Notes under the pieces: model-generated | Database searches by the model: none | What the model saw: the letters and a program-made list of their open reading frames with translations, nothing else | What the model was told of the DNA's origin: nothing | Shown here: positions 9,574 through 60,790 of the stretch, piece by piece | Numbering within the stretch: the stretch's first letter is position 1 | Layout: the number at the start of each line of letters is the position of its first letter | Position numbers and translations under genes: made by a program | DNA from: Novosphingobium sp. KA1 | GTDB lineage: Bacteria > Pseudomonadota > Alphaproteobacteria > Sphingomonadales > Sphingomonadaceae | Direction: 5' to 3' | Assembly: GCF_017309955.1 (NCBI RefSeq) | Contig: NZ_CP021248.1 | Location: forward strand, 744,001-808,000 | Length of the DNA stretch: 64,000 nt

Positions 9574-10932
9574 GGTCGTGTCCCGCGGGGTGGTGTAGGA
9601 ACCGTCGATCCACGGCAGGATCGAGTTCAGGTCAGGCTGCCAGTGCTGGCAAGCTGACAATAGGATTATGGCTCACCGAGCCGAGGGTTTCCAGTGTCAT
9701 GTAGCGGCGCGATACCGCCCACTCATCGTTTTGCTCCAGCATGAGTGCTCCGACGAGACGAACGACGGCAGCGTTATTCGGGAATATGCCGATCACGTCT
9801 GCCCTTCGCTTGATCTCCTTGTTGACCCTTTCCAGTGGATTTGTGGAGGCGATCTGCGCCCAATGATCCTTGGGGAAGGCCATGTAGGCGAGCACGTCCT
9901 CGCGTGATGCGTCCATCATGTCGGCCAGCTTTGGAAACTTCTCGCGCAGGGCATCGGTAACCTGGTCCCACTGCTGTTGCGCCGCCTCGGCCGTCTCCTG
10001 CGCGAAGATGGTCTTGATCATGGCAATGACAGCGGGTCGTTGTTTCGGCGCCGCATGGGCGAACGCATTGCGCATCCAGTGCACCCGGCAGCGCTGCTGG
10101 GTCGCGGAAAATACCTTGCTGGCCGCAGCGCGCAGCCCTTTGTGATCGTCGGCGATGACCAACTTCACACCGCGCAAGCCTCGGTCAGCCAAAGAGCGCA
10201 GGAAGGCTTTCCAGAAAGGTTCGGCTTCCGACGGGCCGGTGGCCACGCCCAGAACCTCGCGTCGGCCATCGGTGTTGACGCCCACCGCGATTATCGCCGC
10301 CGTCGAGACAATCCGTCCGCCCTCGCGCACTTTGAGGTATGTGGCGTCGATCCATAGATAGGGCCACTCGCCTTCAATCGGTCGCGTGAGGAATGCGTTC
10401 ACCCGCTCGTCGATCTCGGCAACCAAACGGCTGACCTGGCTCTTTGAAACACCGCTGGCGCCCATCGCCTTGACCAGATCGTCGACCGAGCGGGTCGAAA
10501 CGCCGTGGACGTAGGCTTCCTGGATCACTGCCGCCAAGGCCTTCTCGGCGGTACGGCGTGGCTCCAGGAAGCTCGGGAAGTAACTGCCTTTGCGCAGCTT
10601 CGGGATCGCCAGATCAATCCGGCCAGCTCGCGTATCCCAACCCCGCTCGCGGTAGCCGTTGCGGTGGTTCAGCCGCTCAGGGCTGCGTGATCCGCAAGGC
10701 ACGCCCGTCTTCGCCTCGATCTCGAGATCCATCATACGCTCTGCGGCAAAAGCCAGCATCTCACGCACCAAATCGCTATCAGCCCCTTGCTCAATCAGCT
10801 CGACAAGGGCCATTCTGTCCTCGGTCATCGTCTTCTTCTCCAGGTTCGAGTTCGCATCCGAACCCTACCAGAAGATCGACGGTGGCCACCCTCTCAGGGA
10901 AACCTTCCTACACCACCCCGCGGGACACGACC
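9574..10932 (-). mobile_element. IS256-family insertion sequence
   Basis: The two ends are inverted repeats: GGTCGTGTCCCGCGGGGTGG on the left, with its complement at the right end. The element carries one transposase gene on the minus strand. Left flank (...gaacccttg) and right flank (gtttctcg...) do not match, although IS256 usually makes an 8-9-bp duplication. The interrupted sequences are also two different genes: an HTH gene on the left and the tail of a TetR gene on the right. A deletion or recombination across this element is therefore likely. Confidence 0.9.
9632..10828 (-). CDS. IS256-family transposase
   Basis: This 398-residue Mutator-type transposase shows the DDE features: LWIDATYLKVREGG with the first Asp, VIADDHKGL with the second Asp near the C(2)H region (QRCRVHWMRNAF), and the distal NPLERVNKEIKRR with the Glu. 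The N-terminal part (SPERLNHRNGYRERGWDTRAGRIDLAIPKLRKGSYFPSFLEPRR) is typical. The frame is complete, so the element may be active. Confidence 0.95.
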   Translation of the reverse strand: MTEDRMALVELIEQGADSDLVREMLAFAAERMMDLEIEAKTGVPCGSRSPERLNHRNGYRERGWDTRAGRIDLAIPKLRKGSYFPSFLEPRRTAEKALAAVIQEAYVHGVSTRSVDDLVKAMGASGVSKSQVSRLVAEIDERVNAFLTRPIEGEWPYLWIDATYLKVREGGRIVSTAAIIAVGVNTDGRREVLGVATGPSEAEPFWKAFLRSLADRGLRGVKLVIADDHKGLRAAASKVFSATQQRCRVHWMRNAFAHAAPKQRPAVIAMIKTIFAQETAEAAQQQWDQVTDALREKFPKLADMMDASREDVLAYMAFPKDHWAQIASTNPLERVNKEIKRRADVIGIFPNNAAVVRLVGALMLEQNDEWAVSRRYMTLETLGSVSHNPIVSLPALAA

Positions 10933-11191
10933 GTTTCTCGAATGGATGCAAGGCGAGGTATCCAGACTGTATGACCGTGTCATCGCGCAGGCGAAGTGTA
11001 TGAAACTCCTCGGCTCCGATTTCACACAGGATGATTTGATATTGTTGATCAGGATGCTTGTCGGAGCCATCTCGGGCCATCGCGGCAACGAGAGCGCTTG
11101 GATCGAGCGCGGACTCGATATCGTGCTGGCCGGTGTTCGGCCGTCGGCGCTCACTTCCACGCCCGATGATGCGGGGGCCAGATGTCCGTGA
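10933..11191 (+). pseudogene. TetR-family regulator, C-terminal remnant
   Basis: Immediately right of the IS256 end the frame reads LEWMQGEVSRLYDRVIAQA...DDLILLIRMLVGAI...ERGLDIVLAGVRP, which resembles the ligand-binding C-terminus of sphingomonad TetR regulators. The DNA-binding N-terminal half is absent and is not found on the other side of the element. It is dead debris, useful as a marker of the rearrangement. Confidence 0.65.
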
Positions 11192-11604
11192 AACGCAGCC
11201 GTAATCTGGGCGATTGACTCGGTCATTGAATAGATCCCTTCGATGCTAGACACCGAAAGTACCTCACTCCCTCACAAGAAATTTCGAACGCTGGGCCGGT
11301 TGGCTGGCGGCGATGCAGGCCGGATCGCCCTCAAAGGATCGCGATACGATGGTTGTCTGGCCTGCGTTTTCTATGGGCTACTCGGTCGTGTTCATCCGGA
11401 GTAACCCACAGCTCTTAAACAGTAGACGCTGCTGGGATGGCTGGGATTAAGCGGGTGAGGCTGGCCTCTTGATCGAGAGATTAGCGTCTGTATGAGGCGG
11501 GCTTCGGCGCAGGCGAATACAGGCGCAGTTACCTCCTTAAAGCTCAGTGGGCGACGCGATTGTCTCCAATCGTCGCAAAACAGAAAAAGTCACGCAGTGA
11601 CGTT
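11192..11604. other. Non-coding stretch upstream of the MaoC gene
   Basis: No gene was recognised in this 413-bp stretch. It precedes the conserved 19-bp element at 11605 and probably holds the promoter region of the following operon. Confidence 0.5.
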
Positions 11605-45481: not shown

Positions 45482-45787
45482 TCAGTCTCTCCTCTCGTCG
45501 ATTGGCGCTGCTCGCTCGAGGCCCACTGCCTAAAAACGAGTCCGCCTCATTTTATGCTGACTAAGGTTATCATTTCGGATGAGCGAGTCGCAAGCGTTAA
45601 AAGGATCCTCTTTGAGGGCCTGGGAATTTTCTGTGAGGTGCGCGTCAGGGCGCGCGCCGCTTACGTGGAGGCGGAATTGCTGTCCGGCGATCTCACCGCG
45701 AAACTCCCGGAGTTTTGTACTTCCTGGCAGCATCGTGTGAAGTCGGAGTTCTCTTCCGCGAGAGCGACAATGTCTGGACAAGAAAAA
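45482..45787. other. Gap right of the IclR gene
   Basis: No gene was recognised in this 306-bp stretch. It should contain the IclR promoter. Short open frames here have no family resemblance. Confidence 0.5.
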
Positions 45788-45809
45788 AGCCGGCCACACA
45801 GGGCCGGCT
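45788..45809 (-). terminator. Rho-independent terminator, minus strand
   Basis: An eight-base stem AGCCGGCC / GGCCGGCT with a six-base loop is followed on the minus strand by a TTTTTT run (plus-strand aaaaaa at 45783-45788). It would end transcription of the leftward glycine-zipper gene, 141 bp downstream of that gene's stop. Confidence 0.85.
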
Positions 45810-45950
45810 GAAGTATTTGGGAGAGGATGCCTTAAAGGCCTCTTTTCGATGTCTTATGTTGCGATGCAATGCAAGTGGGTGGTGTGTGTGCACGTGCAGC
45901 ATCGCCCGGGCGCTTGGTTGGGATGGCGCGCATCGCTGATCCTGCTCGCC

Positions 45951-46349
45951 TTAGCGGCACTTGATTTCGCCGCGATCGATCTGCCGGCCGAGCAGCGCAC
46001 CGCCGCCAGCGCCGATGAGGGTTCCGAGCGTTCCGCCGCCAACGGCCTTGCCGATGAGGGCGCCGCCGATACCGCCAATGACAAGGCCCGTCGTGCCGTC
46101 GCTCCGGCGGCAGTAGGCGCGCCCGTCTCGGCCGCGATAGATCCGGTCGTTGCGGCCAAGGCGGCGATCCTTGTACTTGCCGGAGCGATAGGACCGCGAA
46201 GGTTCCCAGTTACGATCGTTCTCGCGCCACTGGTGTTCGTATCGATCGCGATCTCGGTCCCGGTCGCGCCGCTGCTGAGCCTCGGCGGGGACTGCGAGGC
46301 TCGATACTACGCAGACCAGCAGGGCAAGCGAGGTGGCTTTGATTTTCAT
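45951..46349 (-). CDS. Glycine-zipper envelope protein
   Basis: This 132-residue exported protein has a signal peptide (MKIKATSLALLVCVVSSLAVPAEAQ), a charged stretch rich in Arg and Asp with alternating RD units (residues 27-36), and a C-terminal glycine-zipper segment GLVIGGIGGALIGKAVGGGTLGTLIGAGGGALLG. Such glycine-zipper 2TM domains are found in envelope-stress proteins. ATG at 46349 follows CAGGAG. A promoter-like site that also occurs near the FecI module lies upstream on the same strand (46573-46600). Confidence 0.8.
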   Translation of the reverse strand: MKIKATSLALLVCVVSSLAVPAEAQQRRDRDRDRDRYEHQWRENDRNWEPSRSYRSGKYKDRRLGRNDRIYRGRDGRAYCRRSDGTTGLVIGGIGGALIGKAVGGGTLGTLIGAGGGALLGRQIDRGEIKCR

Positions 46350-46572: not shown

Positions 46573-46600
46573 GAGACACCGCTGATGCGCGGCCGCCTCA
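46573..46600 (-). promoter_or_regulatory. Promoter-like TGAGG-N15-GGTGTCTC, site 1
   Basis: On the minus strand TGAGG is followed by exactly 15 bases and GGTGTCTC. The same arrangement occurs at 50992 and 55666, and with two base changes at 52225. It is probably a promoter for the FecI-type sigma factor at 47061. It would drive the glycine-zipper gene through a leader of about 220 bp. That leader contains a possible 31-codon ORF starting at the minus-strand ATG 46526-46524 with GAGG upstream. Confidence 0.55.
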
Positions 46601-47060
46601 TCATAAAATTCGCAGGGCGTATGACCGCCCCGGTTCAGCGGCCGATCCGGATCGGCCGCAGCGGGCTTCAAACAGGACTCTTATCTTGCAGTCTTCGAAA
46701 AAAATGAATCGCATGAAATCAGCGATTCGCTAGCCGGACTGGTGATGGCGAATTTCAAATAGGTTCCCCTATGGCGAGATTTCGTGTATTTGGTCGCTCG
46801 TCCAGGCAGCGTTTGCCGGCGGCGATGGCGTTTGGGCGTAAGCCGTCCGGGGCTCGGGGCAGGACAGGTCGGCGATGCAGTTAGATGCCGCCGGGGAAGG
46901 ACTTCCCCAGCAAATAAATTCGTTGCTCAAACTGGCGGAATTCGCGCACTTTTGCAGTGCGCGCTCAGCCATTTGAGCCCTTCGGGTCGCAGCTGAAAGG
47001 CACGGACTGACCGGTCGCGCTCACGCAGTGCCGCGTTCAAACGAGAAGTTGGCTAGAACA
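46601..47060. other. Gap upstream of the ECF sigma factor gene
   Basis: No gene, RNA or copy of the TGAGG-N15-GGTGTCTC element was recognised in this 460-bp stretch. The sigma operon is therefore not obviously autoregulated by that element. Confidence 0.5.
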
Positions 47061-47627
47061 ATGTCGAATGGTGGTTTGCTGGGGGTCCTTATGGACATAC
47101 GACCAGCATTGCTGCGCTTCCTCATCCTTCGCGGCGCTACGCCGGAAGAGGCGGAAGACGTGGTTCAGGAGATTTCGATCCGTCTGGCTACGGCGCCCGT
47201 GGCGCCGGTGGCGCAAATGCGCGCCTATCTTTACCGGATGGCCTCGAACCAGTTCCTCATAAATCGGCGCACGGCGGATCGGCGTTCGCGGCGGGAAGTC
47301 GATTGGGTCGACGCCAATACGGGTGATCCTCCGGAAATCGACGAACGCCCGTCTGCGGAGGCGGGCCTCATCGCGGCCGACGAGGTTCGTGTGCTGCAAG
47401 GGGTGATCGATCGCCTGCCCGAGCGCACACGGCAGATCTTTCGCCGGTTTCGCCTCGAAGGCGAGCCGCAGCGCGACATTGCCGAGGACCTAGGCATCAG
47501 CGTAAGCGCGGTGGAAAAGCATCTGGCACGGGCATACGAGGCAGTCGCATCGATCCGAAAAAGACTTGATGGGGATCGACTGCCGGAGCGGCATCTCAGG
47601 TCGGGGGTAGACCGCTATGGAATCTGA
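47061..47627 (+). CDS. FecI-like ECF sigma factor
   Basis: This small sigma-70-family factor has region 2 (RPALLRFLILRGATPEEAEDVVQEISIRL...MRAYLYRMASNQFLINRRTADRRSRR) and region 4 (VLQGVIDRLPERTRQIFRRFRLEGEPQRDIAEDLGISVSAVEKHLARAYEAV). It is the cytoplasmic output of a cell-surface signalling pathway. ATG at 47061 is given, but ATG 47091 with GGGGG upstream is also possible and the frame opens at 47028. Its stop overlaps the FecR start by 11 bases. The FecI-FecR-receptor order is the classical trio. Confidence 0.9.
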   Translation: MSNGGLLGVLMDIRPALLRFLILRGATPEEAEDVVQEISIRLATAPVAPVAQMRAYLYRMASNQFLINRRTADRRSRREVDWVDANTGDPPEIDERPSAEAGLIAADEVRVLQGVIDRLPERTRQIFRRFRLEGEPQRDIAEDLGISVSAVEKHLARAYEAVASIRKRLDGDRLPERHLRSGVDRYGI

Positions 47628-48576
47628 CATGCAACTGATCGACCGCGAAGCAATCGACTGGCACGTGCGCCTTCGCCACGGTGGTGACGAAGTCTGGGAG
47701 GCATTTGCCGAATGGCTGGCCGCCGATCCTCGCAACCAGGCCGCTTACGACGAGATCGCAGAGATCGATTTCGATCTCGACGACCTGCTGCCGCAAGTCT
47801 CGTTCATCGAGAGCGCAAACGACGATGACGGCGAAGGTGAAGCGGTCCCGTTCAAGAAGCGGCGCTTCTGGGCGCCTGCCGGCCTCGTGGCAGCCTCGCT
47901 GGCTGCAGTCCTGACCTACACGCAGTTCAGCACCGATCGCTACGAGATCATCACCCGGCCCGGCGAAATGCGCCAGGTCGCGATTGCGCCGGGATCGAGC
48001 GTCACGCTCAACGGCGGGACGAAACTGATCCTCGACCGCAAGGACAGCCGATTTGCCTCGCTCGAGGGCGGGGAAGCACTGTTCCGCGTCAAACATGACG
48101 CGGCCAGGCCTTTCACGCTCAGGGTCGGCGACAACCAGGTCCAGGACGTGGGAACCGTCTTCAATGTGGTTCACAGCAACGGCGCTGTCCGGGTTGCGGT
48201 GGGTGAGGGTGAAGTCCTCTACAACCCGCGCGCTGAAGCCGTGAAACTCATGGCCGGAGAGGCGCTTGTCGATGGCGGGTCCGGCGGGATGGTCGAGGTG
48301 AAAATGACCGATCCGCAGGCCGTCGGTGCCTGGGAGCGCGGGCAGCTCATCTATTCGGCGGCTCCGCTCTCGCAGGTCGCTGCCGACCTCAGTCGCAAGC
48401 TCGGCGTCTTCGTCACGGTCGAGGGAGCCCTTGCAAACCGGCAGTTCTCGGGCACCTTGTCGCTCGACGGATCTGGGGCAAAACAGCTTCCCCGGATCGC
48501 CGTGGCCCTCGGGGTGGGCCTTGAGGAACGACAGGGCGGATGGATAATGAAGCCGGGGGACAGTGGCGCGCACTGA
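47617..48576 (+). CDS. FecR-like anti-sigma/sigma regulator
   Basis: This 319-residue membrane-spanning regulator has a cytoplasmic N-terminal part (EAIDWHVRLRHGGDEVWEAFAEWLAADPRNQAAYDEI), one membrane segment near residues 85-105 (FWAPAGLVAASLAAVLTYTQF), and a periplasmic FecR domain (ITRPGEMRQVAIAPGSSVTLNGGTKL...LEGGEALFRV). A C-terminal STN-like segment (PLSQVAADLSRKLGVFVTV) follows. It passes the signal from the receptor to the sigma factor. It overlaps both neighbours. Confidence 0.92.
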   Translation: MESDMQLIDREAIDWHVRLRHGGDEVWEAFAEWLAADPRNQAAYDEIAEIDFDLDDLLPQVSFIESANDDDGEGEAVPFKKRRFWAPAGLVAASLAAVLTYTQFSTDRYEIITRPGEMRQVAIAPGSSVTLNGGTKLILDRKDSRFASLEGGEALFRVKHDAARPFTLRVGDNQVQDVGTVFNVVHSNGAVRVAVGEGEVLYNPRAEAVKLMAGEALVDGGSGGMVEVKMTDPQAVGAWERGQLIYSAAPLSQVAADLSRKLGVFVTVEGALANRQFSGTLSLDGSGAKQLPRIAVALGVGLEERQGGWIMKPGDSGAH

Positions 48577-50947
48577 TTGGGTTCTTGCAGTTGCAGGAAT
48601 GACGACATGCATACCCGTCGCGGCCGCAGCCAAGCCGACGGACTTTCGCGTTGTCCCCGGGCGCCTCGGCGATGTCGCCGCTGCGCTCGGGGTGCAGGCG
48701 CGCGTCACAGTCGCGGTGTCCGATCCCGAGGTTGCCATGCGACCTTCGCCGGGCGTCACCGGCCCGCATTCCTTGCCCGATGCCGTCTCGCGGATACTCC
48801 GAGGGACCGGTGCGCGCGCCGTGTTCCACGACGAGAGGACCATCTCAATCGTCGCTGATCGCACGCGGCCCGCTGCATCGTTGCCGCCGCGCGCTGCGGT
48901 GACGGTATCGGTGCCGCCGCCCGAAACCGTGGGCGAGGACATCGTCGTTGCCGCGAGCAAGCAGCGCGTGACGATCGACCGCTACCCAGGATCGGTCAAG
49001 GTGATTGGTCTCTCGCCCTCCTGGACAGCGGCCAATGGTTTCCAGGGAACCTCGGCGCTGACCGCGCTGCAACCCACGCTCAGCGCCACCGACCTGGGGC
49101 CCGGGCGTAACAAGCTCTTTATCCGGGGGATTGCCGACAGCAGTTTCAGCGGGCAGACACAGGCGACTGTCGGCGAGTATCTCGGCAATGTGCGCCTCAA
49201 CTACAACGCCCCCGATCCCGATCTCAATCTCTACGACATTTCGCGGATGGAGGTCCTCGTCGGCCCGCAAGGCGCGCTCTACGGGGCCGGCTCGCTTGGC
49301 GGGATTGTCCGGCTCGTGGCCAATACGCCCGATCCCGAACGCTTTGCCGTCACGACCGCGGCGAACATCGGGGTAACCCAGAACGGCGGGATCAGCAGGG
49401 ATGGGGCAGGCATGCTCAACATTCCGCTGGCCGACGGCGTGGCAGCGCGCGTGGTGGTCTACGGCGGCTATTCGGCAGGCTACATCGATGCGCCCGACCA
49501 GGGGCGCCGCGACATCAATGGATCGCGGCGCTACGGTCAGCGCTTCAGCCTGAGGAGCGGGGATCTCTCCGGCTGGACGCTCGATCTCGGGTTTATCTTC
49601 CAGAACATTTCGGGAAGCGACGGGCAGTACACGATCAAGGGCGAGCCGGCACTGACGCGCTCGGGGATGACAGCCCAGCCTTTCGAGAACAACTACCGGC
49701 TGGGCTACGTGAGCGCCCAGCGCGCGATCGGCAGCCTTGAGCTCAATACGACGACCTCGCTCAGCCTCCACCAACTGGCAACGACCTACGATGCGACCGG
49801 ATACGACCAGTCGGACGCTCCGGCGAGCTACGACGAGCACAACATCATCCTGCTGTTCTCGCACGAGACGCGGGTGTCGGGCGGCAGCGCTGCCAAACCG
49901 TGGGTGGCAGGTGTCTCGGCCGTCGTGAATTCGAGCTACATCTCGCGGGATTTCACCACCTCGGATGGTCCCTACGACATTCCCGGAGTGGTCAACCAGC
50001 AAACCGAAGTCGCCGTGTTCGGCCAGGCTTCCCGGCCGCTGGGCCAGACCCTTACCGGCACCCTGGGCGGGCGACTGACCTACAGCGCCACCAAGGGCTT
50101 CCTGACCGGCGATGCCTTTGAGGATCTTCCGGCTTCGCGCCGCAGGGCCGTGCGCTTTTCGGGGACATTTGCAATCGATTGGCGGCCCGGGGGGCCGGTT
50201 TCGGGCTTCTTCCACTACCAGCAGGGCTATCGTCCCGGCGGGCTGGGCTATGGGCTTTCCGAAACCGGTATCGCGGCGCAGCGCTACGACGCCGACGATC
50301 TCCATATGAATGAACTCGGTATACGCATCGGCGATGCGAGGAACGACAAGCTCACGGCGCGCGCGGCCGTTTTCATAGCGCTCTGGCGCAATATCCAGGC
50401 CGATCTCATCGGCAGCAGCGGCTTTTCCTACACTGCCAATATCGGGAACGGTTCGATCCACGGTCTCGACGGCGAGGTGAACTGGCGTCCGCGCCCCAGC
50501 CTCTCCTTCTCGCTTGCAGCCTTTCTTAACGACAGCAAGGTCGGCAAGCTCAGGTCGGGCATTGTCCCAAGTACGTCGCCCGAGGTCCTGGATATCTCCA
50601 GGACCCTTCCAGACGTCGCGCGAAGCGGCGTGCATTTCTCGGGCGAATGGAACGGGCGCCTCAGCGATCGCATCACGGCCACCGCGCGCGGCTCGCTCCG
50701 ATATGTCGGCCGCTCGCAGCTCGGGATCGGTTATCCCCTCGACGTCTCGCAGGGCGATTACGCGGTCGCGGACATGTCGCTTCAGCTCCAGAGAAGAAAT
50801 CTCGGGCTGACGCTCTCGCTCGACAATGTCGCCAATACCCGCGCGAACACATTCGCCTTCGGCAATCCATTCGGGCTGTGGCAGCGCAACCAGATGACGC
50901 CCTTGCGGCCGCGGACGCTGCGTCTCGGCCTCCAGGCAAACTGGTGA
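48563..50947 (+). CDS. FecA-like TonB-dependent transducer/receptor
   Basis: This 794-residue receptor has an N-terminal secretin/TonB (STN) signalling domain (residues about 25-100, FRVVPGRLGDVAAALGVQARVTV...LPDAVSRILRGTGARAV). The STN domain marks a receptor that also signals to FecR. It is followed by a TonB-box region (GEDIVVAASKQ), a plug (LFIRGIADSSF, MEVLVGPQGALYGAGSLGGIVRLV) and a barrel ending LGLQANW. GTG at 48563 overlaps the FecR stop. The ligand is unknown. The barrel's aromatic last residue is Trp rather than Phe. Confidence 0.92.
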   Translation: MARTDWVLAVAGMTTCIPVAAAAKPTDFRVVPGRLGDVAAALGVQARVTVAVSDPEVAMRPSPGVTGPHSLPDAVSRILRGTGARAVFHDERTISIVADRTRPAASLPPRAAVTVSVPPPETVGEDIVVAASKQRVTIDRYPGSVKVIGLSPSWTAANGFQGTSALTALQPTLSATDLGPGRNKLFIRGIADSSFSGQTQATVGEYLGNVRLNYNAPDPDLNLYDISRMEVLVGPQGALYGAGSLGGIVRLVANTPDPERFAVTTAANIGVTQNGGISRDGAGMLNIPLADGVAARVVVYGGYSAGYIDAPDQGRRDINGSRRYGQRFSLRSGDLSGWTLDLGFIFQNISGSDGQYTIKGEPALTRSGMTAQPFENNYRLGYVSAQRAIGSLELNTTTSLSLHQLATTYDATGYDQSDAPASYDEHNIILLFSHETRVSGGSAAKPWVAGVSAVVNSSYISRDFTTSDGPYDIPGVVNQQTEVAVFGQASRPLGQTLTGTLGGRLTYSATKGFLTGDAFEDLPASRRRAVRFSGTFAIDWRPGGPVSGFFHYQQGYRPGGLGYGLSETGIAAQRYDADDLHMNELGIRIGDARNDKLTARAAVFIALWRNIQADLIGSSGFSYTANIGNGSIHGLDGEVNWRPRPSLSFSLAAFLNDSKVGKLRSGIVPSTSPEVLDISRTLPDVARSGVHFSGEWNGRLSDRITATARGSLRYVGRSQLGIGYPLDVSQGDYAVADMSLQLQRRNLGLTLSLDNVANTRANTFAFGNPFGLWQRNQMTPLRPRTLRLGLQANW

Positions 50948-50991
50948 TCGAGCCGGGCCATCCGGCTTTGTAACCAATGGCAATTTTCTTG

Positions 50992-51019
50992 TGAGGGTGC
51001 TCGTAGCGAGCGGTGTCTC
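50992..51019 (+). promoter_or_regulatory. Promoter-like TGAGG-N15-GGTGTCTC, site 2
   Basis: An exact TGAGG, 15 bases and GGTGTCTC, preceded by TTTTCTTG and followed after six bases by GAATGGA. It lies about 230 bp upstream of the MipA gene. Sites at 52225 and 55666 share the GAATGGA at the same spacing. Confidence 0.55.
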
Positions 51020-51249
51020 ACAAGCGAATGGAGTTTACATTCCGTCCCGATCCTTGCCGATCGCCCTGCTCAGATTGCCGATCCGGTGCCGCACACGCGG
51101 ACCCGGACATAGTCTCTCCCGCTCCGTTCGTGGCGGGAGAGGGCGGCTGTCCGCAGGACATCGCCTGGCGTGATGGGACGGCTTGAGGCTCCTTCGCTTT
51201 TGGACACGGCCTGGCCGACACGGCTGGACCCAAGGAGTTTTTGCCTCGC

Positions 51250-52056
51250 ATGACCAACGATCTCACCCGGCCCGCGCGCCTCATCGCAGCTGGAGCCGCA
51301 TGCCTTCCCTTGCTCTGGGCCGGCTCTGCAAACGCGCAGCAGTGGGGCCGTCTGCCCACCGAGCAGTCGAGTTCGGCCGATGACGATCATGTCATCATCG
51401 GTGTCGGCGCCGGATATGCCCCTTCCTATCAGGGGGCCGACGACTACCGGGTGCTGCCGATGCCGGCAATCGATGTCGACGTCGGGCCATTCTACGCCAA
51501 TCTTCGCAACGGCGTGGGCATCAAGGCCGTCGACACCGGCAAGATCACGCTCGGCGGCGGTGTCACCGTCATGCCGGGATACCGCTCGAAGGACGTTCCC
51601 GACGGTATTGGCAAGCTTTCGATCGGCGTCGGCGGACGCCTTTTTGCCAGCGTCAATGCCGGCGGCGTTGTCGCCACCGTTGGTGCGACCAAGGGCTTTG
51701 CTGGCGGGACCAAGGGTCTCCTTGCCGATGCCAGCGTCTCGTACCCGATCCCCGTCACCTCGCGGATCACTGTCATTCCCACGGTCATGACCACCTGGGC
51801 GGACAGCAAGTACAACAACGGCTACTTCGGCGTGAGCGAATCCCAGTCGCTTGCCTCGGGTCTTTCGCAGTTCGAGATGGGCAGCGGCTTCAAGGATGCA
51901 TCGGCCATGTTGACTGTCAGCTACCGCATGACCGACCACATCATCGTCAGCGCATCGGGCGGTGTAACCACGCTGCTTGGCGACGTGAAGGATAGCCCGC
52001 TTGTCTATCACACGACCCAGCCGGCGGGCTTCATGTCTGTCGGTTACCGCTTCTGA
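51250..52056 (+). CDS. MipA/OmpV-family outer-membrane protein
   Basis: This 268-residue outer-membrane beta-barrel has a signal peptide (ARLIAAGAACLPLLWAGSANAQ) and the family pattern VIIGVGAGYAPSYQGADDYRVLPMPAIDVDVGPFYANLRNGVGIK, ending in Phe (FMSVGYRF). Members act as scaffolding or channel-like proteins in the outer membrane, and some are induced by stress or antibiotics. ATG at 51250 is given. TTG at 51241 is also possible, since AAGGAG lies at 51233-51238. The promoter-like site upstream suggests control by the FecI-type sigma factor. Confidence 0.88.
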   Translation: MTNDLTRPARLIAAGAACLPLLWAGSANAQQWGRLPTEQSSSADDDHVIIGVGAGYAPSYQGADDYRVLPMPAIDVDVGPFYANLRNGVGIKAVDTGKITLGGGVTVMPGYRSKDVPDGIGKLSIGVGGRLFASVNAGGVVATVGATKGFAGGTKGLLADASVSYPIPVTSRITVIPTVMTTWADSKYNNGYFGVSESQSLASGLSQFEMGSGFKDASAMLTVSYRMTDHIIVSASGGVTTLLGDVKDSPLVYHTTQPAGFMSVGYRF

Positions 52057-52105
52057 ATATCGGGGATGGGGGATGTCTTCCGGCGCCATGCGTCAGAGAG
52101 TGTCC

Positions 52106-52137
52106 CCTCCCATATTCGGCCATTCGGCTATGGGAGG
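52106..52137. repeat. Inverted repeat downstream of the MipA gene
   Basis: Nine-base perfect arms CCTCCCATA / TATGGGAGG with a 14-base loop, 49 bp after the MipA stop. It may act as a terminator stem, but no T-run follows. Confidence 0.5.
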
Positions 52138-52224
52138 CGCGGCAAATTGCGCAAGGCGCGCAGCGAATTAAATGCGTCTGTTCAGTGGTTAACGAGGAAT
52201 ATTCGTAAGATCCGAAATTTCTCG

Positions 52225-52252
52225 TGGGGAAAGTGCTTCGCGGCAGTGTCTC
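52225..52252 (+). promoter_or_regulatory. Promoter-like TGGGG-N15-AGTGTCTC, variant site 3
   Basis: It differs from the other sites at one base in each block but keeps the 15-base spacing and the GAATGGA six bases after the second block. It lies 301 bp before the secreted-protein gene at 52553. The stretch 52253-52552 has no other recognised feature apart from a short possible leader ORF starting at the ATG 52261. Confidence 0.5.
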
Positions 52253-52552
52253 AGTTTTGAATGGAGATTGCCATGTTTTATGCAAAGCCGATGAACACCT
52301 GATCTGATGGGGCGCCGAGGCTCCCTGAATACTGATTGCTCACTGTCCGGCTGCGATTGCCGGAAGTCAGCGTAACTATCCCGCCACGTTCGGCAAGAAA
52401 AGCCGAACCACCGGGTCGCACAAGTAGGCAGGGACACGCAGGCATAAGGCCGGCGACCCTGCCGAAACTTCCCAGTCCAGCACCAGAGCCGCCCGTTTGG
52501 CCCATTCATGCGTGGGCCGACGAGTGCGGGCGCGTGCCCAGGAGATTTTTCC

Positions 52553-53686
52553 ATGAACTCTGTCCGCAAGATTTCCCCTTCCTTCCTTCATCGCCCGCTT
52601 CTTCCGCTGTTTCTGGCAGCCGGTGTTGTCCTCGCGGGGCCGGCTTACGCGGCCCCGCGCCATCAGGACCCTTCGCATCATCCTCATGATCGTGCGCCCG
52701 TGGTGATAGGCGGCGCCGTGCATCTCATCGGCTTTGGTCCGATCGATGCAAACCACGGCGGCGAACTTAGTTTCGAGAGCGATGCGGTCGTTTTCGAGGC
52801 CGGCAAGGTCAGCTATGCGGTTCCTTACGAGGCGGTCGAGGCGTTCTCGATCGATCATTCGAACAAGGCCCTGATGCGCGGTGCCAAGAACGTCGTTGCG
52901 GGCCTCGCGCCGCAGGGCGTGGGCCTGCTCTACAAGGCGATCCGGCCCGGCGCCGAGACACTGTCGATGGTCTACCGGGACGAGAACGGTGCACTCCATG
53001 CCGCCGTCATCATGCTTCCCAAAGACGCGAAGGACGAGGCGCTTCGCGCCTTGAAGGACGCTGGACTGACCGGCGATCCCAGCCTGCGGTCGCAAGGCAG
53101 CACTACGATAAGCGAGGGCACTGCGCTTGCCGGTGCCTCGCCGCTTTACGATCACGCTCGATACGTGGCGGTGCCGGGACGGGGCGAGGCACCTGCTGCG
53201 CCGGGCTATGTTGGCAAGCCGGCTGTCACCGTGCGCTTCCCCGAAACCACTACCGCCAATGTCCCGGCCTACTACCTGGCCGCAACGTATGAGGCGACGA
53301 TCGCCCAACTCACCAAGTCCGATGATTTCGGAGAAATCTGGCGCGAGGGCGACCAGCGCGCGGAGCGTGGCTCACTCCTCCTTGCGACGAGCATCACGCA
53401 CCTCAAGAAGGGTAATGCCGGTTTCCGCGGCGCTGTGCCGGTCATTGGCATGATCGCGGGCCGGACCGTCGTGGTTGCCGATGTCCGTCTGACCGATGCG
53501 CAAGGCACCATTCTGCTCAGCGACACTTTCAAGGGGTCCAAGCGAATGCCCGGCGAAAGCCTCGGCGCTGCGAGCAGCCTCGCGCAGCGGGTTCGCGACG
53601 GCGTCGACGATGTTCCAATCTTTGCCGAAGCTGCTCCGGCGGGCGGCGATGGCACGCCCCAACGTATTGCAGGAAAGGGGCGCTGA
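52553..53686 (+). CDS. Exported protein of unknown function
   Basis: I do not recognise this 377-residue protein as a named family. It has a clear signal peptide (LLPLFLAAGVVLAGPAYAA), then a His-rich stretch (HQDPSHHPHD), a domain with the pattern LIGFGPIDANHGGELSFESDAVVFEAGKVSYAVPYEAVEAFSIDHSNKALMRG, and a second domain with a lipoprotein-like stress-protein feel (DVRLTDAQGTILLSDTFKGSKRMPGESLGAA). The ATG at 52553 follows AGGAGA. It overlaps the open frame of the next gene. A promoter-like site shared with the MipA gene lies upstream. Confidence 0.75.
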   Translation: MNSVRKISPSFLHRPLLPLFLAAGVVLAGPAYAAPRHQDPSHHPHDRAPVVIGGAVHLIGFGPIDANHGGELSFESDAVVFEAGKVSYAVPYEAVEAFSIDHSNKALMRGAKNVVAGLAPQGVGLLYKAIRPGAETLSMVYRDENGALHAAVIMLPKDAKDEALRALKDAGLTGDPSLRSQGSTTISEGTALAGASPLYDHARYVAVPGRGEAPAAPGYVGKPAVTVRFPETTTANVPAYYLAATYEATIAQLTKSDDFGEIWREGDQRAERGSLLLATSITHLKKGNAGFRGAVPVIGMIAGRTVVVADVRLTDAQGTILLSDTFKGSKRMPGESLGAASSLAQRVRDGVDDVPIFAEAAPAGGDGTPQRIAGKGR

Positions 53687-53858
53687 GGTGATCCGGCAGG
53701 TTGTCGCGGCACTGCAGGTGCGCCGCGAACGTGCATTCGGCCCGGCGCCAAAGGAGGCAGCCGGCCGAAGCATTGCTGGTCATGGTTGCGGCAGGGCGCA
53801 GCCCGACGCGAGATTCAGGGGGCTGGCCGGTGTTGCAAACGGCCACAATGCCGGCTGT

Positions 53859-54854
53859 ATGGGCGAGCCCGCCCGTCAACGGTATGGAAAGGGCGAGGCG
53901 GTCAGGTACCACACAGCGGGCCTGCGCATGGCGGTCATCTCCAATGCGAAAGCGCATCGCAACCGATTGGTAGCGAGCGAGGGGGCATATGAGGGCAGCG
54001 GTAAGGCGGGTTTCTCCCGCCTACATGTTGCGCCCAAAAGCGTGCAAGAGCTGGAATGGGCGGTGGCTTCCATCGCCCGCGAGTATCCCGACTTGCTGGT
54101 GATCGACGGCGGTGACGGAACGATCCGGGATGTTCTCACACTTGCAGCCCGGTATTTTCGCGGAGGACTGCCGAACATCGTCGTGGTCCCCTCGGGCAAG
54201 ACCAATGCCCTGGCGCACGATTTAGGGGTTCCGGCTGGCTGGACGCTGGAGCAGGCCCTAACCCAGCTAGAGTGGCAGATTGCTCGGCGCTATCCACTTG
54301 AGATATGCTATGGTGACAAAGATCGCCCCGACCAGTGCGGCTTCCTGTTTGGAACCGGCGCATTTGCCGAAGCAACAGCCCTGGCTCAGTCGGTCCACCG
54401 GGCCGGTGTGTTCGGAACCCCGGCCGTGGCCTTGTCGCTTGCGGCGTCGATTGGAGGCGCCCTGTGGCGACAGCGGCGAGGGAAACAGCGTGAGGGCGAG
54501 GTCGTCGGTATTGCTCTCGGCAAAGACGATTGCCTCGCCGACTGGCACTCGTTCATGCTGTTGGCCGGCTCTCTCGAGCGCTTGCCGCTCGGGTTGAAGG
54601 TGTTCGGTCCCCGCCGTACCGGCATGAACCTCCTCACAGTCGATGCCCCGGCGCGCCAGCTGCTGGCCTCGAGTGCGGCCATCATCGCCGGTGCTCGTTG
54701 CTCGTGGCTCATTCGTAACGGCTATGTTCGTTCGAACCCGGCTCGCTTCCGGCTCAGGCTTTCATCCGAATTCGTTCTCGATGGCGAGCGCTATCCTGGA
54801 GGCGACCTCGAAGTGCGTGAGGGGCGGGGGATAAACTTCCTTGTTCCGGTTTGA
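53859..54854 (+). CDS. Diacylglycerol-kinase-like lipid kinase
   Basis: This roughly 331-residue protein has the DAGK catalytic motif VIDGGDGTIRDVLT and the following nucleotide-binding segment VVVPSGKTNALAHDLG. It should phosphorylate a lipid or a sphingoid-type alcohol. Bacterial relatives include YegS and LCB kinases, which would fit a sphingolipid-making bacterium. The start is uncertain: the frame is open from 53496, and ATG 53649, ATG 53859 and ATG 53929 are options. The later ones fit the beginning of the conserved domain (MAVISNAKAHRN). It lies downstream of the exported protein, possibly in the same transcript. Confidence 0.75.
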   Translation: MGEPARQRYGKGEAVRYHTAGLRMAVISNAKAHRNRLVASEGAYEGSGKAGFSRLHVAPKSVQELEWAVASIAREYPDLLVIDGGDGTIRDVLTLAARYFRGGLPNIVVVPSGKTNALAHDLGVPAGWTLEQALTQLEWQIARRYPLEICYGDKDRPDQCGFLFGTGAFAEATALAQSVHRAGVFGTPAVALSLAASIGGALWRQRRGKQREGEVVGIALGKDDCLADWHSFMLLAGSLERLPLGLKVFGPRRTGMNLLTVDAPARQLLASSAAIIAGARCSWLIRNGYVRSNPARFRLRLSSEFVLDGERYPGGDLEVREGRGINFLVPV

Positions 54855-55186
54855 CTCGTCCCCTTTTCGGGCGCTGGCCTTAGCCCGCTTTGCTGCAGAA
54901 CTTACGGCGGCCTCGGGTTTTTTGGCCTCACGCAATGGGAGAACGCGCATCGGCATTGGCCTGCTTTGCGGGTCCCTTGCGTGTTGTGCATCTGCAGTTC
55001 AATCGCCTCAATGTGTCAGCTTGTCGAGCGGTAGTCTCGTCCGCGCCTCTCGCCATCGAAGATCTGGCCCCTCACGCTCGCGGTGTGATGGCGCTCCATG
55101 ACGTTCTCGGGTAGAGCGGATTGTCCTGTTTCGGCTTGTGCGGCACCAAGCCCCATGAGGCTTCGCATAATCGCCTCTTCAACGCA
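54855..55186. other. Gap after the lipid-kinase gene
   Basis: No gene or conserved structure was recognised in this 332-bp stretch. It leads into a zone of transposon remains. Confidence 0.5.
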
Positions 55187-55325
55187 TTATCTCATTATGT
55201 GGAGCACCGTAGGGGAACCCAAACGAGCTTGATGGTTGCAACGAAGTTGGCGGGTCTTGTCGTAGCATGCGGCGAAATCACGGCGGCGCTTGATGGCGTT
55301 GACGAAGCGCCGACTAGGTTTCGCT
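55187..55325 (-). pseudogene. IS5-type transposase C-terminal remnant
   Basis: On the minus strand one frame reads RFVNAIKRRRDFAACYDKTR and a second frame continues NFVATIKLVWVPLR. Joined, they resemble the C-terminal FN.IKRFRR.A.RYDKTARNFLA.I.L of IS5-family transposases. A frameshift and the lack of the rest mark it as decayed. Confidence 0.55.
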
Positions 55326-55665
55326 GTTTGCAGAGCCAATGTGAGAAGGCAACGCGCCGCTTGCGGTTGGACCGATGGAGAAGCTTGACCCACAAGTTCC
55401 CCGCCGCTGCCGCTTCGCAGGCATCGTGAACTTGCCCCCTGTCAGTCTCGGGCCTCTACGAAACTCATCAAGATTCTAATGTCGTTGAGAAAGTTCGCGC
55501 GATTGGCCCGACTGACTAAAGCGGAGCTGTCTTATGGAGCAGCGCTTCTAATGCACGCATCGTCGCTCGCTCGGCCAAGTTAAGTCAAGATAGCTGCTTT
55601 AACCGCCATACTATCTTGAAAATAAGGAGTTTTCCGGGAGTGGTGAGCGTTCGCTAATTTTTTTG
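55326..55665. other. Gap without recognised genes
   Basis: No coding or RNA feature was recognised. It sits between the IS5 remnant and the promoter-like site at 55666. Confidence 0.45.
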
Positions 55666-55693
55666 TGAGGCTGGTGGCCGGGAGCGGTGTCTC
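55666..55693 (+). promoter_or_regulatory. Promoter-like TGAGG-N15-GGTGTCTC, site 4, orphaned
   Basis: An exact copy of both blocks and spacing, preceded by a T-run and followed after six bases by GAATGGA as at 50992. The IS3 element begins 127 bp downstream, so whatever gene it drove has been lost or displaced. A 26-codon frame starts at the ATG 55702. Confidence 0.5.
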
Positions 55694-55854
55694 TAATGTG
55701 AATGGATATTGCTAATCTCGCATTGGTCATCTGCGCAAGGATCACTATTTCCGTTCTGCCTTGCAGCACGGTTGGTGAATAGCGGGGTGACTTAGGGTTC
55801 GGTACCTCGGCGCTCGATGATGATCTGCCCCCACCGAGTGGACCGATTGGTTTG

Positions 55855-56697
55855 TTAGTGCATTAAGCTCATCACCGCCATATCCGGACGGAGGTGGAGC
55901 GAAGCGGAACCGGAGGCCGGATATGGCGGTGTCGCCGTTTCTGGTGCCGGCGGTCGGTAGCCCAGGCTGCTGTGAGGGCGAACGGTGTTGTAATGCCGCC
56001 GCCATGCCTCGATCAGTACCTTGGCCTCCGCGAGGCTGTAGAAGATCTCGCCGTTGAGCAGTTCGTCGCGAAGCGACCCGTTGAAGCTTTCGTTATAGCC
56101 ATTCTCCCATGGTGATCCCGGTGTGATGTAGAGTGTCTTCACGCCGATCTGGCCCAGCCATTTCTGGACGGCGGTCGCGATAAATTCGCTGCCATTATCG
56201 GACCGTATATGTGCAGGCGGACCGCGCGAGATGAACAGGTCGGCCAGGGCCGCCAGAACATCCTCATGCTTGAGCTGCCGTGCAACGATGAGCGCCAGGC
56301 ATTCCCTGCTGGCCTCGTCGATGATCGTGAGGATGCGGAACTTGCGGCCATCATGCGTCCGCCCCTCGACGAAATCGTAGGCCCAGACATGTCCCGGATA
56401 TTCGGGCCGCAGGCGGATGCATGAACCGTCATTGAGCCACAGGCGTCCCCGCTTTGGCTGACGCAGCGGAACCTTCAGCCCCTCACGCCGCCAGATCCGC
56501 TCAACCCGTTTATGGTTCACCGTCCATCCCGCATGGCACAGCAATGCCGTCACCCGGCGATAGCCATAACGGCCATATTGCTTCGCCAAAGCGATGATAT
56601 CCTCTGTCAGCGCCTGTTCGTCATCCGCCCCGCGCGGCACCTTGCGTTGTGTCGATCGATGCTGACCCAGCACCCGGCATATCCGTCGCTCGGACAC
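55855..56697 (-). CDS. IS3-family transposase OrfB (copy 2, intact)
   Basis: This 280-residue integrase domain protein has an HTH_21 region ([34 protein letters not shown]) and the DDE triad in [17 protein letters not shown] and [10 protein letters not shown]. It is probably produced mainly as an OrfA-OrfB fusion through frameshifting near 56750-56760, since its frame overlaps the end of orfA. The start given is the GTG of VSERRI. Confidence 0.92.
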
Positions 56698-56747
56698 CGG
56701 AAGCTCTCGTCGTACATGATCGATGCAGCGCCGCCGCCGCGCAGGGC

Positions 56748-57026
56748 TCAGAAGTTTCCCTTGGCAGCCTCCTGCAGGATCAGCTTGTCCAGCGTCAGGT
56801 CCGAAATCGCCCGGCGAAGACGCTGGTTCTCTTTCTCCAGATCCTTCATACGCCGCGCCTGGTCCGTCTTCAGGCCGCCATATTCCTTCCGCCAGCGATA
56901 ATAGGTTTGCTCGCTGACCGCGATCCGGCGGCAGGCTTCAGCCGTGCTCGCTCCCTGCGCCAGCACAATCTCAACTTCACGCAGCTTGCCGATAATCTCT
57001 TCCGGCTTGTGCTTCTTGCTCGGCAT
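56748..57026 (-). CDS. IS3-family OrfA (copy 2)
   Basis: Identical in translation to the OrfA at 7420-7698: an N-terminal HTH and a C-terminal leucine zipper, 92 residues. With the intact orfB next to it this copy could supply transposase for itself and for the split copy. Confidence 0.93.
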
Positions 57027-57089
57027 TCATCGTCCCTTTCGTGGTCCAGACTATCATAGTCTCTGGGCCACTCAGCGGGGGGCAGGTCA

Positions 57090-58326: not shown

Positions 58327-59052
58327 TCTTCCGGCGATGGGTGGATCTGTCGCGGATCAGGTCGGAGGAGGGGCTTTGGTGACGGGGGTAGCGAGGGATG
58401 GTACGGGAGGGGATCGAAGCGAGGCATCAATTCGACAAAGTGGCGAAGTGGGGTTCGGGCCGGCGGCCGTGGATGCGATTGCCGCCGGGGGTGTGAATGG
58501 AAATGGCGCGGGCACCGACGTGGATGAGGCTGGCCAGAGGGCCAACGTGTTCAGCGCGAGACCAGCCAACGTGTTGACATTCCGGTTAGCTGCAACCGGC
58601 AAGGAGTCCTGCCGAAGTCGACTTCGGGGCCGAAGTCCAAATCCGTATCGCGATTAGCGGCCAGGACTTCATCGGGTTCAAAAAGGGCACGGCGCCCAGT
58701 TTCTCCACCGACTGGCACGAAATGCGGAGCGGGAAAGTCAGCCGCAGAACCGGCGGAGCTGAACGGCTCAGGCGCGAGCGCTGCCCGGACTTGATTTGAT
58801 CCAGGACCGGCATAAAGTCGGACGCAGATTGCCAATTCGCAGGTTTTTCTGGCAATGGCATTAATAAGTGTGACAATATTTTAACGACTTGGGCGTGTAC
58901 AGGATGCCGCCGGTTGGACACTCTGGAAAGGTGAGAGTTCGGGGGCGATCTGACTCGGCATCATGAAATGCGTATCTTTGACTAATCTGTGAGGGGCCTG
59001 TCGGAGCTTTGGCAAGTCTTGCAAGGTGCGCAATCGATGGACCCGATGCGGC

Positions 59053-59619
59053 ATGAAAGAGGATCCCCCCGATCCCCGGAATTCCAGCCTCGCTCGCAAG
59101 GATGATGCAATTTCCAACGAGAATGCTGCGGTCCGGCTGGAACGAATTCTGCTCAATATTTCCGGGGAAATGCTGTCCCTTCTCGAAAATGAACTCGGCT
59201 CGCGCGATGCTGCGCATGAAGCTCTCCAGGATACCTCCGAAAAGCTCGCGAGACGACCGGTTCTCGGGGAGGTTCGAAATCCGCGAGCCTATCTTTGGCG
59301 CATGGCGCTCAATTTCGGCCGCAATCGGCGCAAGGCGGCCGCGCGGATCGTATCGGTGCGGCAAGCATGGCTGGATGAAATTCCCGACATCGCGCCAGAC
59401 CCGGAAAGGATCGCCGCGGCGCGCAGGGAACTCGCCATAATCGTGGAGGCACTGGCGGACCTCACAGAACAGAGAAGGGCAATCTTCCTCGACAAGTTCC
59501 GAGACGACCTGTCCCTCGACGATATCGCCCGGCTGCGCGGGCTGCACCGCAGAACTGTGCAGAAAGAGTTGACGCGCGTCGTCGAACTGCTTCGTATTCG
59601 GCTTGGCCGGCCCCGATGA
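59053..59619 (+). CDS. ECF-type sigma factor, orphan
   Basis: This roughly 188-residue sigma-70-family factor has region 2 (LLENELGSRDAAHEALQDTSEKLARRP...VRNPRAYLWRMALNFGRNRRKAAAR) and region 4 (IIVEALADLTEQRRAIFLDKFRDDLSLDDIARLRGLHRRTVQKELTRVVELLRIRLG). It resembles the FecI group. GTG 59026 or ATG 59053 may be the start. No FecR gene or receptor follows. Instead an IS110 element begins about 55 bp after the stop, so partner genes may have been displaced. Confidence 0.85.
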   Translation: MKEDPPDPRNSSLARKDDAISNENAAVRLERILLNISGEMLSLLENELGSRDAAHEALQDTSEKLARRPVLGEVRNPRAYLWRMALNFGRNRRKAAARIVSVRQAWLDEIPDIAPDPERIAAARRELAIIVEALADLTEQRRAIFLDKFRDDLSLDDIARLRGLHRRTVQKELTRVVELLRIRLGRPR

Positions 59620-59674: not shown

Positions 59675-60616
59675 TCAAGCCTGAGATTGCGCCCAGCATC
59701 TATCGGCTTTGAGCAGAGCGTTTGCGGTCACGACGAGTTTTCGCATGACGGCGGTGATGGCGATTTTGGCGGGCTTTCCTGCGGTGACGAGTTGTTGGTA
59801 TTTTGCCTTGAGATCAGGGTTGTATCGGGCGGCGACGAGGGCCGGCATATAGAGGGCCTGCCTCACGTTGGCACGTCCGCCGCGGATGAAGCTTTTGCCT
59901 TTCCATTGTCCGGATTGCCGCGCGATCGGTGCAAGGCCGGCAAGGGACGCGGCCTGCTTGTTCTCAAGGCTGCCGAGTTCGGGCATGGTGGCGATGAGCT
60001 GGTTGGCGGTCAGCGTTCCCACACCCGCGATGCTGGTCAGTATCTGGTGTCGACGAGCGAGTACGGCATCGGCGGCGATCAGGTTGGAGATCTCGGCGTC
60101 GAGGGCCGCGATATGTCGATCGATCTGTTCGAGCCGCTGGCGACACTGGCGCTTGAGAAACGCGATGGTGAGATTTTTCTCACGATTTTTGAGCGCGGTG
60201 CGATCACGAACCAAGCCGTCTCGGGCATTGATGAGTTCCGCCATTTGGGTCTGCTGTGCGCTTCGAGCGGGTCTGACCGCTGGCTGCAAGGTTGCGGCCA
60301 TACGAGCCAGCAGGATGGCGTCAATGCGATCAGTCTTGGCCAATGTGCCAGTCGCCTGGGCGAAGCGCCGGGCCCGTTCAGGGTTGAGCTTCACACAAGG
60401 CCAGTTGGTCAGCGCCGCCTCCAGTGCGCGATGATAGGTTCCGGTTGCCTCGTAGGCGATCCGTTCGATCGGCCATTGTCGCAGCCAGGCGATCAGCGCC
60501 TTGTGCCCCTTGGCGGTATTGGCAAACTGGCGCTCGGCGCCGACGGGGTAGGCATGGCAATCGAGGCTCGCTTTGGAGATGTCGATGCCGATTGTCTGTG
60601 GTAGATTGTCGCTCAT
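59675..60616 (-). CDS. IS110-family DEDD transposase
   Basis: This 313-residue recombinase has the RuvC-like N-terminal domain (IGIDISKASLDCHAYP, with the first Asp; IAYEATGTYHRAL, with the Glu; LAKTDRIDAILLA, with the Asp pair) and the C-terminal transposase_20 domain with LTSIAGVGTLTANQLIATMPELG and IARQSGQWKGKSFIRGGRANVRQALYMPALVAARYNP, which carries the catalytic Ser region. ATG at 60616 (MSDNLPQTIG) is preferred to 60652. IS110 elements have no long inverted repeats and make no obvious target duplication. Confidence 0.93.
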   Translation of the reverse strand: MSDNLPQTIGIDISKASLDCHAYPVGAERQFANTAKGHKALIAWLRQWPIERIAYEATGTYHRALEAALTNWPCVKLNPERARRFAQATGTLAKTDRIDAILLARMAATLQPAVRPARSAQQTQMAELINARDGLVRDRTALKNREKNLTIAFLKRQCRQRLEQIDRHIAALDAEISNLIAADAVLARRHQILTSIAGVGTLTANQLIATMPELGSLENKQAASLAGLAPIARQSGQWKGKSFIRGGRANVRQALYMPALVAARYNPDLKAKYQQLVTAGKPAKIAITAVMRKLVVTANALLKADRCWAQSQA

Positions 60617-60790
60617 CTTTTCCGCTGTCCCATGCTTGTCATCCGGGTCCAAAACCCCGGTATCCGTTCGGGCCTGATGGAAAAGAAAGGGGCGATCCTA
60701 CTCTAACCCGGTCCCTTAACGACCGGCGGTTTCGCGATCCGTCCCCTTCCGCCCGGACCGGGGTGGCCACCCCGGTCCGGGCAATCCAGC
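60617..60790 (-). ncRNA. Candidate IS110 bridge-RNA region upstream of the transposase
   Basis: In IS110 elements of the IS621 type the non-coding end upstream of the recombinase encodes a structured bridge RNA that pairs with target and donor DNA. Here the non-coding stretch contains a perfect 32-base palindrome (60751-60782, arms GCCCGGACCGGGGTGG) and GC-rich inverted segments. It is the right place and size, but no loop pairing could be worked out. The RNA and its ends are inferred. Confidence 0.35.

Follow-up and report, generated by a model that had tools for sequence, protein, structure and literature searches.

Does a pair of short sequence blocks, repeated around a FecI-type sigma factor gene of Novosphingobium sp. 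KA1, mark promoters that are read by this sigma factor? The question was raised by a preliminary description of a 64,000-nt stretch of the genome (NZ_CP021248.1, 744,001-808,000; the window, to whose positions all site and gene coordinates refer). It listed three exact sites of the form TGAGG-N15-GGTGTCTC and a two-base variant, and likened the blocks to the -35 and -10 elements of an extracytoplasmic function (ECF) sigma factor. The analysis reported here indicates that the sites are very probably promoters, as yet putative, of the sigma factor encoded at 47061, since related bacteria have the same signal next to their orthologue of this sigma gene.

Copies of the motif in the window and in the genome

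The sigma operon and the sites considered are listed below. The E-values given for sites are those of a model built from 18 aligned sites, and each site listed with such a value was itself a training site of that model.

47061-47627, plus strand: FecI-type ECF sigma factor (Sigma70_r2 and Sigma70_r4_2; the frame opens at GTG 47028)
47617-48576, plus strand: FecR-like regulator (FecR 1.1e-15, DUF4880 5.4e-10)
48563-50947, plus strand: TonB-dependent receptor (Plug 4.6e-8)
46573-46600, minus strand: exact promoter-like site (TGAGG 46596-46600, GGTGTCTC 46573-46580), 223 bases before a glycine-zipper gene; model E 1.9e-6
50992-51019, plus strand: exact promoter-like site before a MipA gene, with GAATGGA at 51026-51032; model E 3.6e-10
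52225-52252, plus strand: promoter-like site, two-base variant; model E 3.5e-7
55666-55693, plus strand: exact promoter-like site, with an insertion sequence (IS) starting 127 bases downstream; model E 1.5e-8
11247-11274, minus strand: fifth promoter-like site, one mismatch (GGTGTCTA); model E 5.4e-5
47570-47597, plus strand: divergent site TGGGG-N15-GGCATCTC, within the 3'-terminal codons of the sigma gene and before fecR

The sigma frame (199 aa) carries Sigma70_r2 at residues 25-85 and Sigma70_r4_2 at residues 123-172, i.e. regions 2 and 4 only, and it is adjoined by both the FecR-like regulator and the receptor. The positions first given for the three exact sites and the two-base variant were confirmed, together with the 15-base spacer of all four and the GAATGGA that lies six bases 3' of the second block at 50992, 52225 and 55666. 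The fifth site at 11247, the fecR-proximal site at 47570 and the placing of GAATGGA at a Shine-Dalgarno position (see below) are additions to the preliminary description.

The 5.78-Mb genome contains three copies of the exact pattern, and all three lie within 9 kb of the sigma/FecR/TonB-receptor operon. Copies with one mismatch number six genome-wide, one inside the window (11247) and five elsewhere; none of these five is among the model matches listed for this genome (five of six matches, all five of them in the window). Allowing up to two mismatches gave 63 matches in the genome, compared with 28 when the pattern was reversed. With up to three allowed, the window had 19 matches against 19.2 expected by chance, and therefore only close copies count.

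Alignment of the five sites revealed further conserved bases, namely AATTTT upstream of the first block (AATTTT-TTGTGAGG) and GAATGGA 3' of the second, while the flanks are otherwise unrelated. The extended pattern TTGTGAGG-N15-GGTGTCT, searched genome-wide at up to two mismatches, was found only at 46573, 50992, 55666 and 11247; site 52225 fits it at three mismatches only, where there are 60 matches versus 37 for the control. GTC is invariant across the 18 aligned sites. In sequence, the sites thus show the bipartite form, the constant spacing and the GTC-like -10 block of candidate ECF promoters. No plus-strand match at up to three mismatches was found from position 38.9 kb of the window up to the sigma gene, suggesting that the sigma gene has no promoter of this type of its own.

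The preliminary description had left room for a dispersed repeat not tied to promoters. Such a repeat, or a coincidence, would agree with the chance-level window count at three mismatches and with the position of two of the sites next to insertion sequences, but the exact copies are three in number and local, their flanks are unrelated, and the genome scan did not find copies spread through the genome regardless of genes. Comparison with related genomes, described next, refutes this explanation, to which we give practically no weight: orthologous sigma loci carry the motif and resampled loci do not.

The motif beside and within related sigma genes

Relatives of the window sigma factor were searched for in 298 genomes of the family, and 128 of these have one at E 1e-20 or better. 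The nearest matches were in genomes G217 (63%), G031 (60%) and G021 (58%), followed by G011 (49%), and a scan of named genomes added further Sphingomonas and Novosphingobium orthologues at 53-61%. When 83 sigma proteins were placed in a tree, the orthologues, 13 proteins labelled as such by sequence identity, formed one clade (support 100/99), with the G011 protein (locus L094) outside it.

Scored with a matrix built from the five window sites alone, 11 of the 12 orthologous sigma loci had no less than 22 bits and the twelfth (L091) had 17.2 bits; L111 and L092 are one locus, and L117-L120 are mutually close relatives. Only one of 21 more distant FecI-like sigma loci (20 distinct ones, L097 and L125 being identical) exceeded 20 bits. 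Among 300 resampled loci none reached 20 bits and three reached 17 bits.

The 18-site model, with training sites from the window genome (G000), G031 and G021 and none from G217, was run over 397 genomes of the family. The best matches were in G031, G000 and G021, then in G217 (1.0e-3), and the next genome, G196, followed at 3e-3; a match at E 1 or less, as found in 223 of the 397 genomes, was taken as chance. These four top genomes also have the sigma orthologues that came closest in the 298-genome search for the sigma factor, and two of the three other than the window genome had supplied training sites. These results tie the motif to one sigma clade, and they support the first suggestion that the block pair represents ECF -35 and -10 elements, probably those of the sigma factor encoded at 47061.

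The divergent site before fecR was found at the same place in the sigma orthologues. A related element, in which GATGNGG is followed by CGTC at a distance of 17 bases, occupies this place in many FecI-like operons of the family. One hundred loci were entered in a count of this element, and 86 were left after removal of repeats, with some near-copies remaining; GATGNGG stands near the sigma stop in 63 of these 86 distinct loci, the other 23 being omitted from what follows. In 39 of the 63 the -10 slot lies past the stop codon, and although the offset was left free, 32 of them have CGTC at precisely the 17-base distance from GATGNGG, the next commonest offset, six bases nearer, occurring in eight of the 39. 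The slot is still coding in the other 24 loci, of which 12 have CGTC, and the window clade has CATC or a similar sequence. Conservation at the protein level was considered as the cause of the element in the wider family and was rejected, as there are loci in which the sigma frame stops inside the spacer. Since CGTC is kept in 32 of 39 loci with a non-coding slot, the element after the sigma genes of the wider family is, judged from this pattern, a DNA signal.

Spacing was also scanned in 47 loci, where a score of 12 or more was obtained in 35 at spacing 15 and in 17 at spacing 9. In all 20 loci checked, fecR was the next gene. The exact family element gave 21 matches in 119 genomes of the family, versus three for the reversed pattern, and nine of the 21 lie at the ends of sigma matches. 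In 240 alphaproteobacterial genomes it gave 16 matches versus two, none of them with a relative of the window proteins inside its 3-kb locus; we therefore make no claim beyond the family.

An IclR-type regulator gene at 44669 adjoins the sigma locus, and the block pair could accordingly be the binding site of a nearby regulator such as this one, with another sigma factor starting transcription. Site 50992 is partly palindromic by eye, but the palindrome is not common to the other aligned sites (also by eye), and a tblastn search of the orthologue loci (10-20 kb each) at 1e-4 gave no match to the window IclR gene. Because the related element also recurs 3' of many FecI-like sigma genes, we consider binding by such a regulator improbable, and promoters of the FecI-like sigma factor the better explanation.

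Genes downstream of the sites

The sites in the window stand before, or run into, the following features.

51250-52056, plus strand: MipA/OmpV gene (MipA 4.3e-46; a TTG start is possible at 51241)
52553-53686, plus strand: protein whose N-terminus resembles a signal peptide (by eye), with a DUF4410 match that is weak and under the curated cut-off
45951-46349, minus strand: glycine-zipper protein (Rick_17kDa_Anti 1.3e-5)
55821-57089, minus strand: multi-copy IS adjoining site 55666, with repeated edges and transposase frames (by eye)

The sites were said to precede glycine-zipper, MipA and exported-protein genes. Their position was borne out, as these genes begin 220-300 bases 3' of their sites, and, as in the window, MipA lies 3' of the motif and in the same orientation in nine further loci (L092, L093, L112-L115, L118-L120), L111 being left out of this count as identical with L092. 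No MipA was found within the stretch examined of L091 and L094, and locus L117 ends at a contig end. With tblastn at 1e-4, neither the glycine-zipper gene nor the 52553 gene found a match in the orthologue loci, so that these two are proposed as targets from the window itself. The assumption that a gene after site 55666 has been replaced by an IS found no support: only frames of 26-28 codons start in the 127 bases before the IS. A search with the IS stretch gave 31 matches, comprising site 50992, the IS itself, seven further copies that are full-length and identical, and others that are diverged or partial.

In the relatives, a DUF3313 gene follows a model match on another contig of G031, which was not a training site, and a DUF3313 gene also follows the second site of Sphingomonas sp. 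DG1-23. A site in G217 precedes a gene with a weak porin match, under the cut-off. The position of the motif before genes can thus be read directly from the sequences.

A start codon follows the second (-10) block at a distance of 20-23 bases in 11 of the 13 sites from relatives, and between the two stands the Shine-Dalgarno sequence AAGGAG in seven sites and AATGGAG or ATTGGAG in three. As the relatives have AAGGAG, followed by a start codon, at the place of GAATGGA, the latter appears to mark the Shine-Dalgarno position in the window. At site 52225 the motif is followed by GAATGGAG and by an ATG at +20 that opens a 9-codon frame (by eye), the next long gene lying about 300 bases on. A leaderless gene starting from the ATG in GAATGGA, which would give a 408-codon frame in L093, was considered and dropped because of this AAGGAG in seven of the 13 sites and the start codon 20-23 bases on in 11. 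The start codon at this distance in L093 is TTG, in frame with the 408-codon frame (by eye).

A small protein follows the site in 10 of the 13 relatives' sites; it matched nothing in NCBIfam and nothing of note in Pfam, and it forms one frame with MipA in L093 and L118-L120. The small proteins of L112-L120, L092 and L093 form a family (LTPLE...LEALRRYAIL), and relatives of it were detected in 11 of the 12 genomes of the bacterial family that were searched. Two of these relatives are encoded elsewhere in the window genome (G000:C2:992070 and G000:C1:2314121), neither beside a motif site.

These observations could be taken to mean that the conserved block serves the small-protein gene as a leader or as a translation signal (a Shine-Dalgarno sequence with an upstream enhancer) and not as a promoter, given that the block ends in AAGGAG in seven relatives' sites and that a small conserved frame comes next in 10. 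The block is also found before DUF3313, glycine-zipper and porin-like genes, however, and the invariant columns lie mostly within the two upstream blocks, which makes a translation signal very unlikely and again favours a promoter. A search of the leaders against Rfam found no known RNA element there.

Several further features of the window were noted. The leaders before MipA (51170-51200) and the 52553 gene (52300-52330) have a similar stretch, GATGGGrCG...GAGGCTCC (by eye). Rfam detected a suhB/mmgR small RNA (RF00519, 46 bits) at 45773-45846 on the minus strand, between the IclR and glycine-zipper genes. The fifth site lies beside an IS256-like transposase gene (9632-10828, minus strand) and a TetR-like fragment (10787-11191, plus strand), both named by eye. 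A second ECF-sigma-like frame (59026-59619, plus strand) lies beside an IS110-like transposase frame (59675-60652, minus strand), again named by eye.

Proposed mechanism and known systems

In the proposed mechanism, the receptor (48563) would sense a ligand and signal via FecR (47617), and the sigma factor, thereby activated, would bind RNA polymerase. Its -35 element would be AATTTT-TTGRTGAGG and, after a spacer of 15 bases, its -10 element would be CGGTGTCTC. Transcription would begin a few bases downstream, just 5' of the Shine-Dalgarno sequence (AAGGAG in several relatives, AATGGAG in the window). The predicted targets are outer-membrane or exported proteins, i.e. MipA, the glycine-zipper protein and another protein in the window, and DUF3313 proteins in relatives. 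The weaker site in the 3' end of the sigma gene may let the sigma factor also raise fecR and the receptor. We infer transcription from the sites, its dependence on the sigma factor, the flow of the signal and the ligand.

A number of observations weigh against this mechanism. Because the 18 sites were both found with an ungapped matrix and aligned without gaps, their equal spacing is in part a product of the method. Site 11247 is antisense to the TetR-like fragment and near a transposase gene (names by eye), and site 55666 runs into the IS. Outside the clade, L094 has a match of 22.6 bits at the end of its own sigma gene. The support from G217 is limited to a model E of only 1.0e-3 and to 17.2 bits, a score that three of the 300 resampled loci also reach. 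In L116 the site lies downstream of MipA and not before it, the G031 match L262 has no clear gene, and the glycine-zipper and 52553 genes have no match at 1e-4 in the orthologue loci. The window has no conserved gene start near the Shine-Dalgarno position, its assigned genes beginning only 220-300 bases on. The fecR-proximal site of the window clade has CATC, TATC or AGTC and not TGTC, and because it overlaps codons, conservation of the protein could explain it. Lastly, no Pfam domain was called for an N-terminal signalling domain of the receptor, of which residues 8-100 matched positions 12-104 of the FecA model at 4.2e-4, a weak match far under the cut-off of that model.

Comparison of the clade with 70 other FecI-like sigma factors gave 21 differing columns. 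Four of these (61, 64, 65 and 71) lie in what we take to be region 2.3-2.4, and the other 17 are scattered along the protein. Region 2.3-2.4 is the part that reads the -10 element, according to the available part of one account (PMC8103513). The window sigma factor departs from its own clade at columns 61 and 64, and the match between the clade's residue changes and the -10 shift from CGTC to TGTC is suggestive only. On balance, we lean slightly towards a wider scheme, in which many Sphingomonadaceae FecI-like sigma genes would have the FecR/receptor promoter across their stop codon, so that the sigma factor would boost its sensor and regulator but not itself. In one clade the -10 element would have shifted from CGTC to TGTC together with region 2.4 residues, keeping a dispersed outer-membrane regulon apart from the other FecI-like sigma factors in the cell.

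A clade-tied motif and a family element offer targets for testing and a way to study how similar sigma factors stay apart in one cell, and they would connect MipA and further envelope genes, and not a receptor alone, with a FecI-type system. FecI-like sigma factors are numerous in sphingomonads, yet an alphaproteobacterial study, in the part available, gives no FecI promoter motif (PMC6180224). A literature search, in which subscription journals were mostly outside the coverage and sources were seen in part, found no description of the motif.

The EcfG-type general stress response promoters of sphingomonads are ECF promoters from the same bacterial family, with GGAAC as their -35 element. Unlike these, the window sites lack GGAAC, and the window sigma factor is FecI-like. 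The -35 and -10 sequences of the Escherichia coli Fec system also differ from the window motif. The sigma, FecR and receptor gene order is the same as in FecI/FecR/FecA of E. coli, as far as the available part of the source describes it (PMC9249621). A further likeness is that no site of the window pattern stands before the sigma gene, and in E. coli Fec the same partial source regards sequence downstream of the start as important (PMC9249621). This lack of a site fits the naming of FecI-like sigma factors as exceptions to autoregulation in the available text of PMC8103513. The fecI-fecR-receptor order is also found in an alphaproteobacterium, Sinorhizobium meliloti, where, in the accessible portion of the report, putative starts were mapped upstream of fecR and of the receptor gene, no promoter motif was found, and FecI had only two putative targets (PMC6180224). 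Unlike E. coli Fec, the window system has several putative targets, together with a site before fecR inside the sigma gene.
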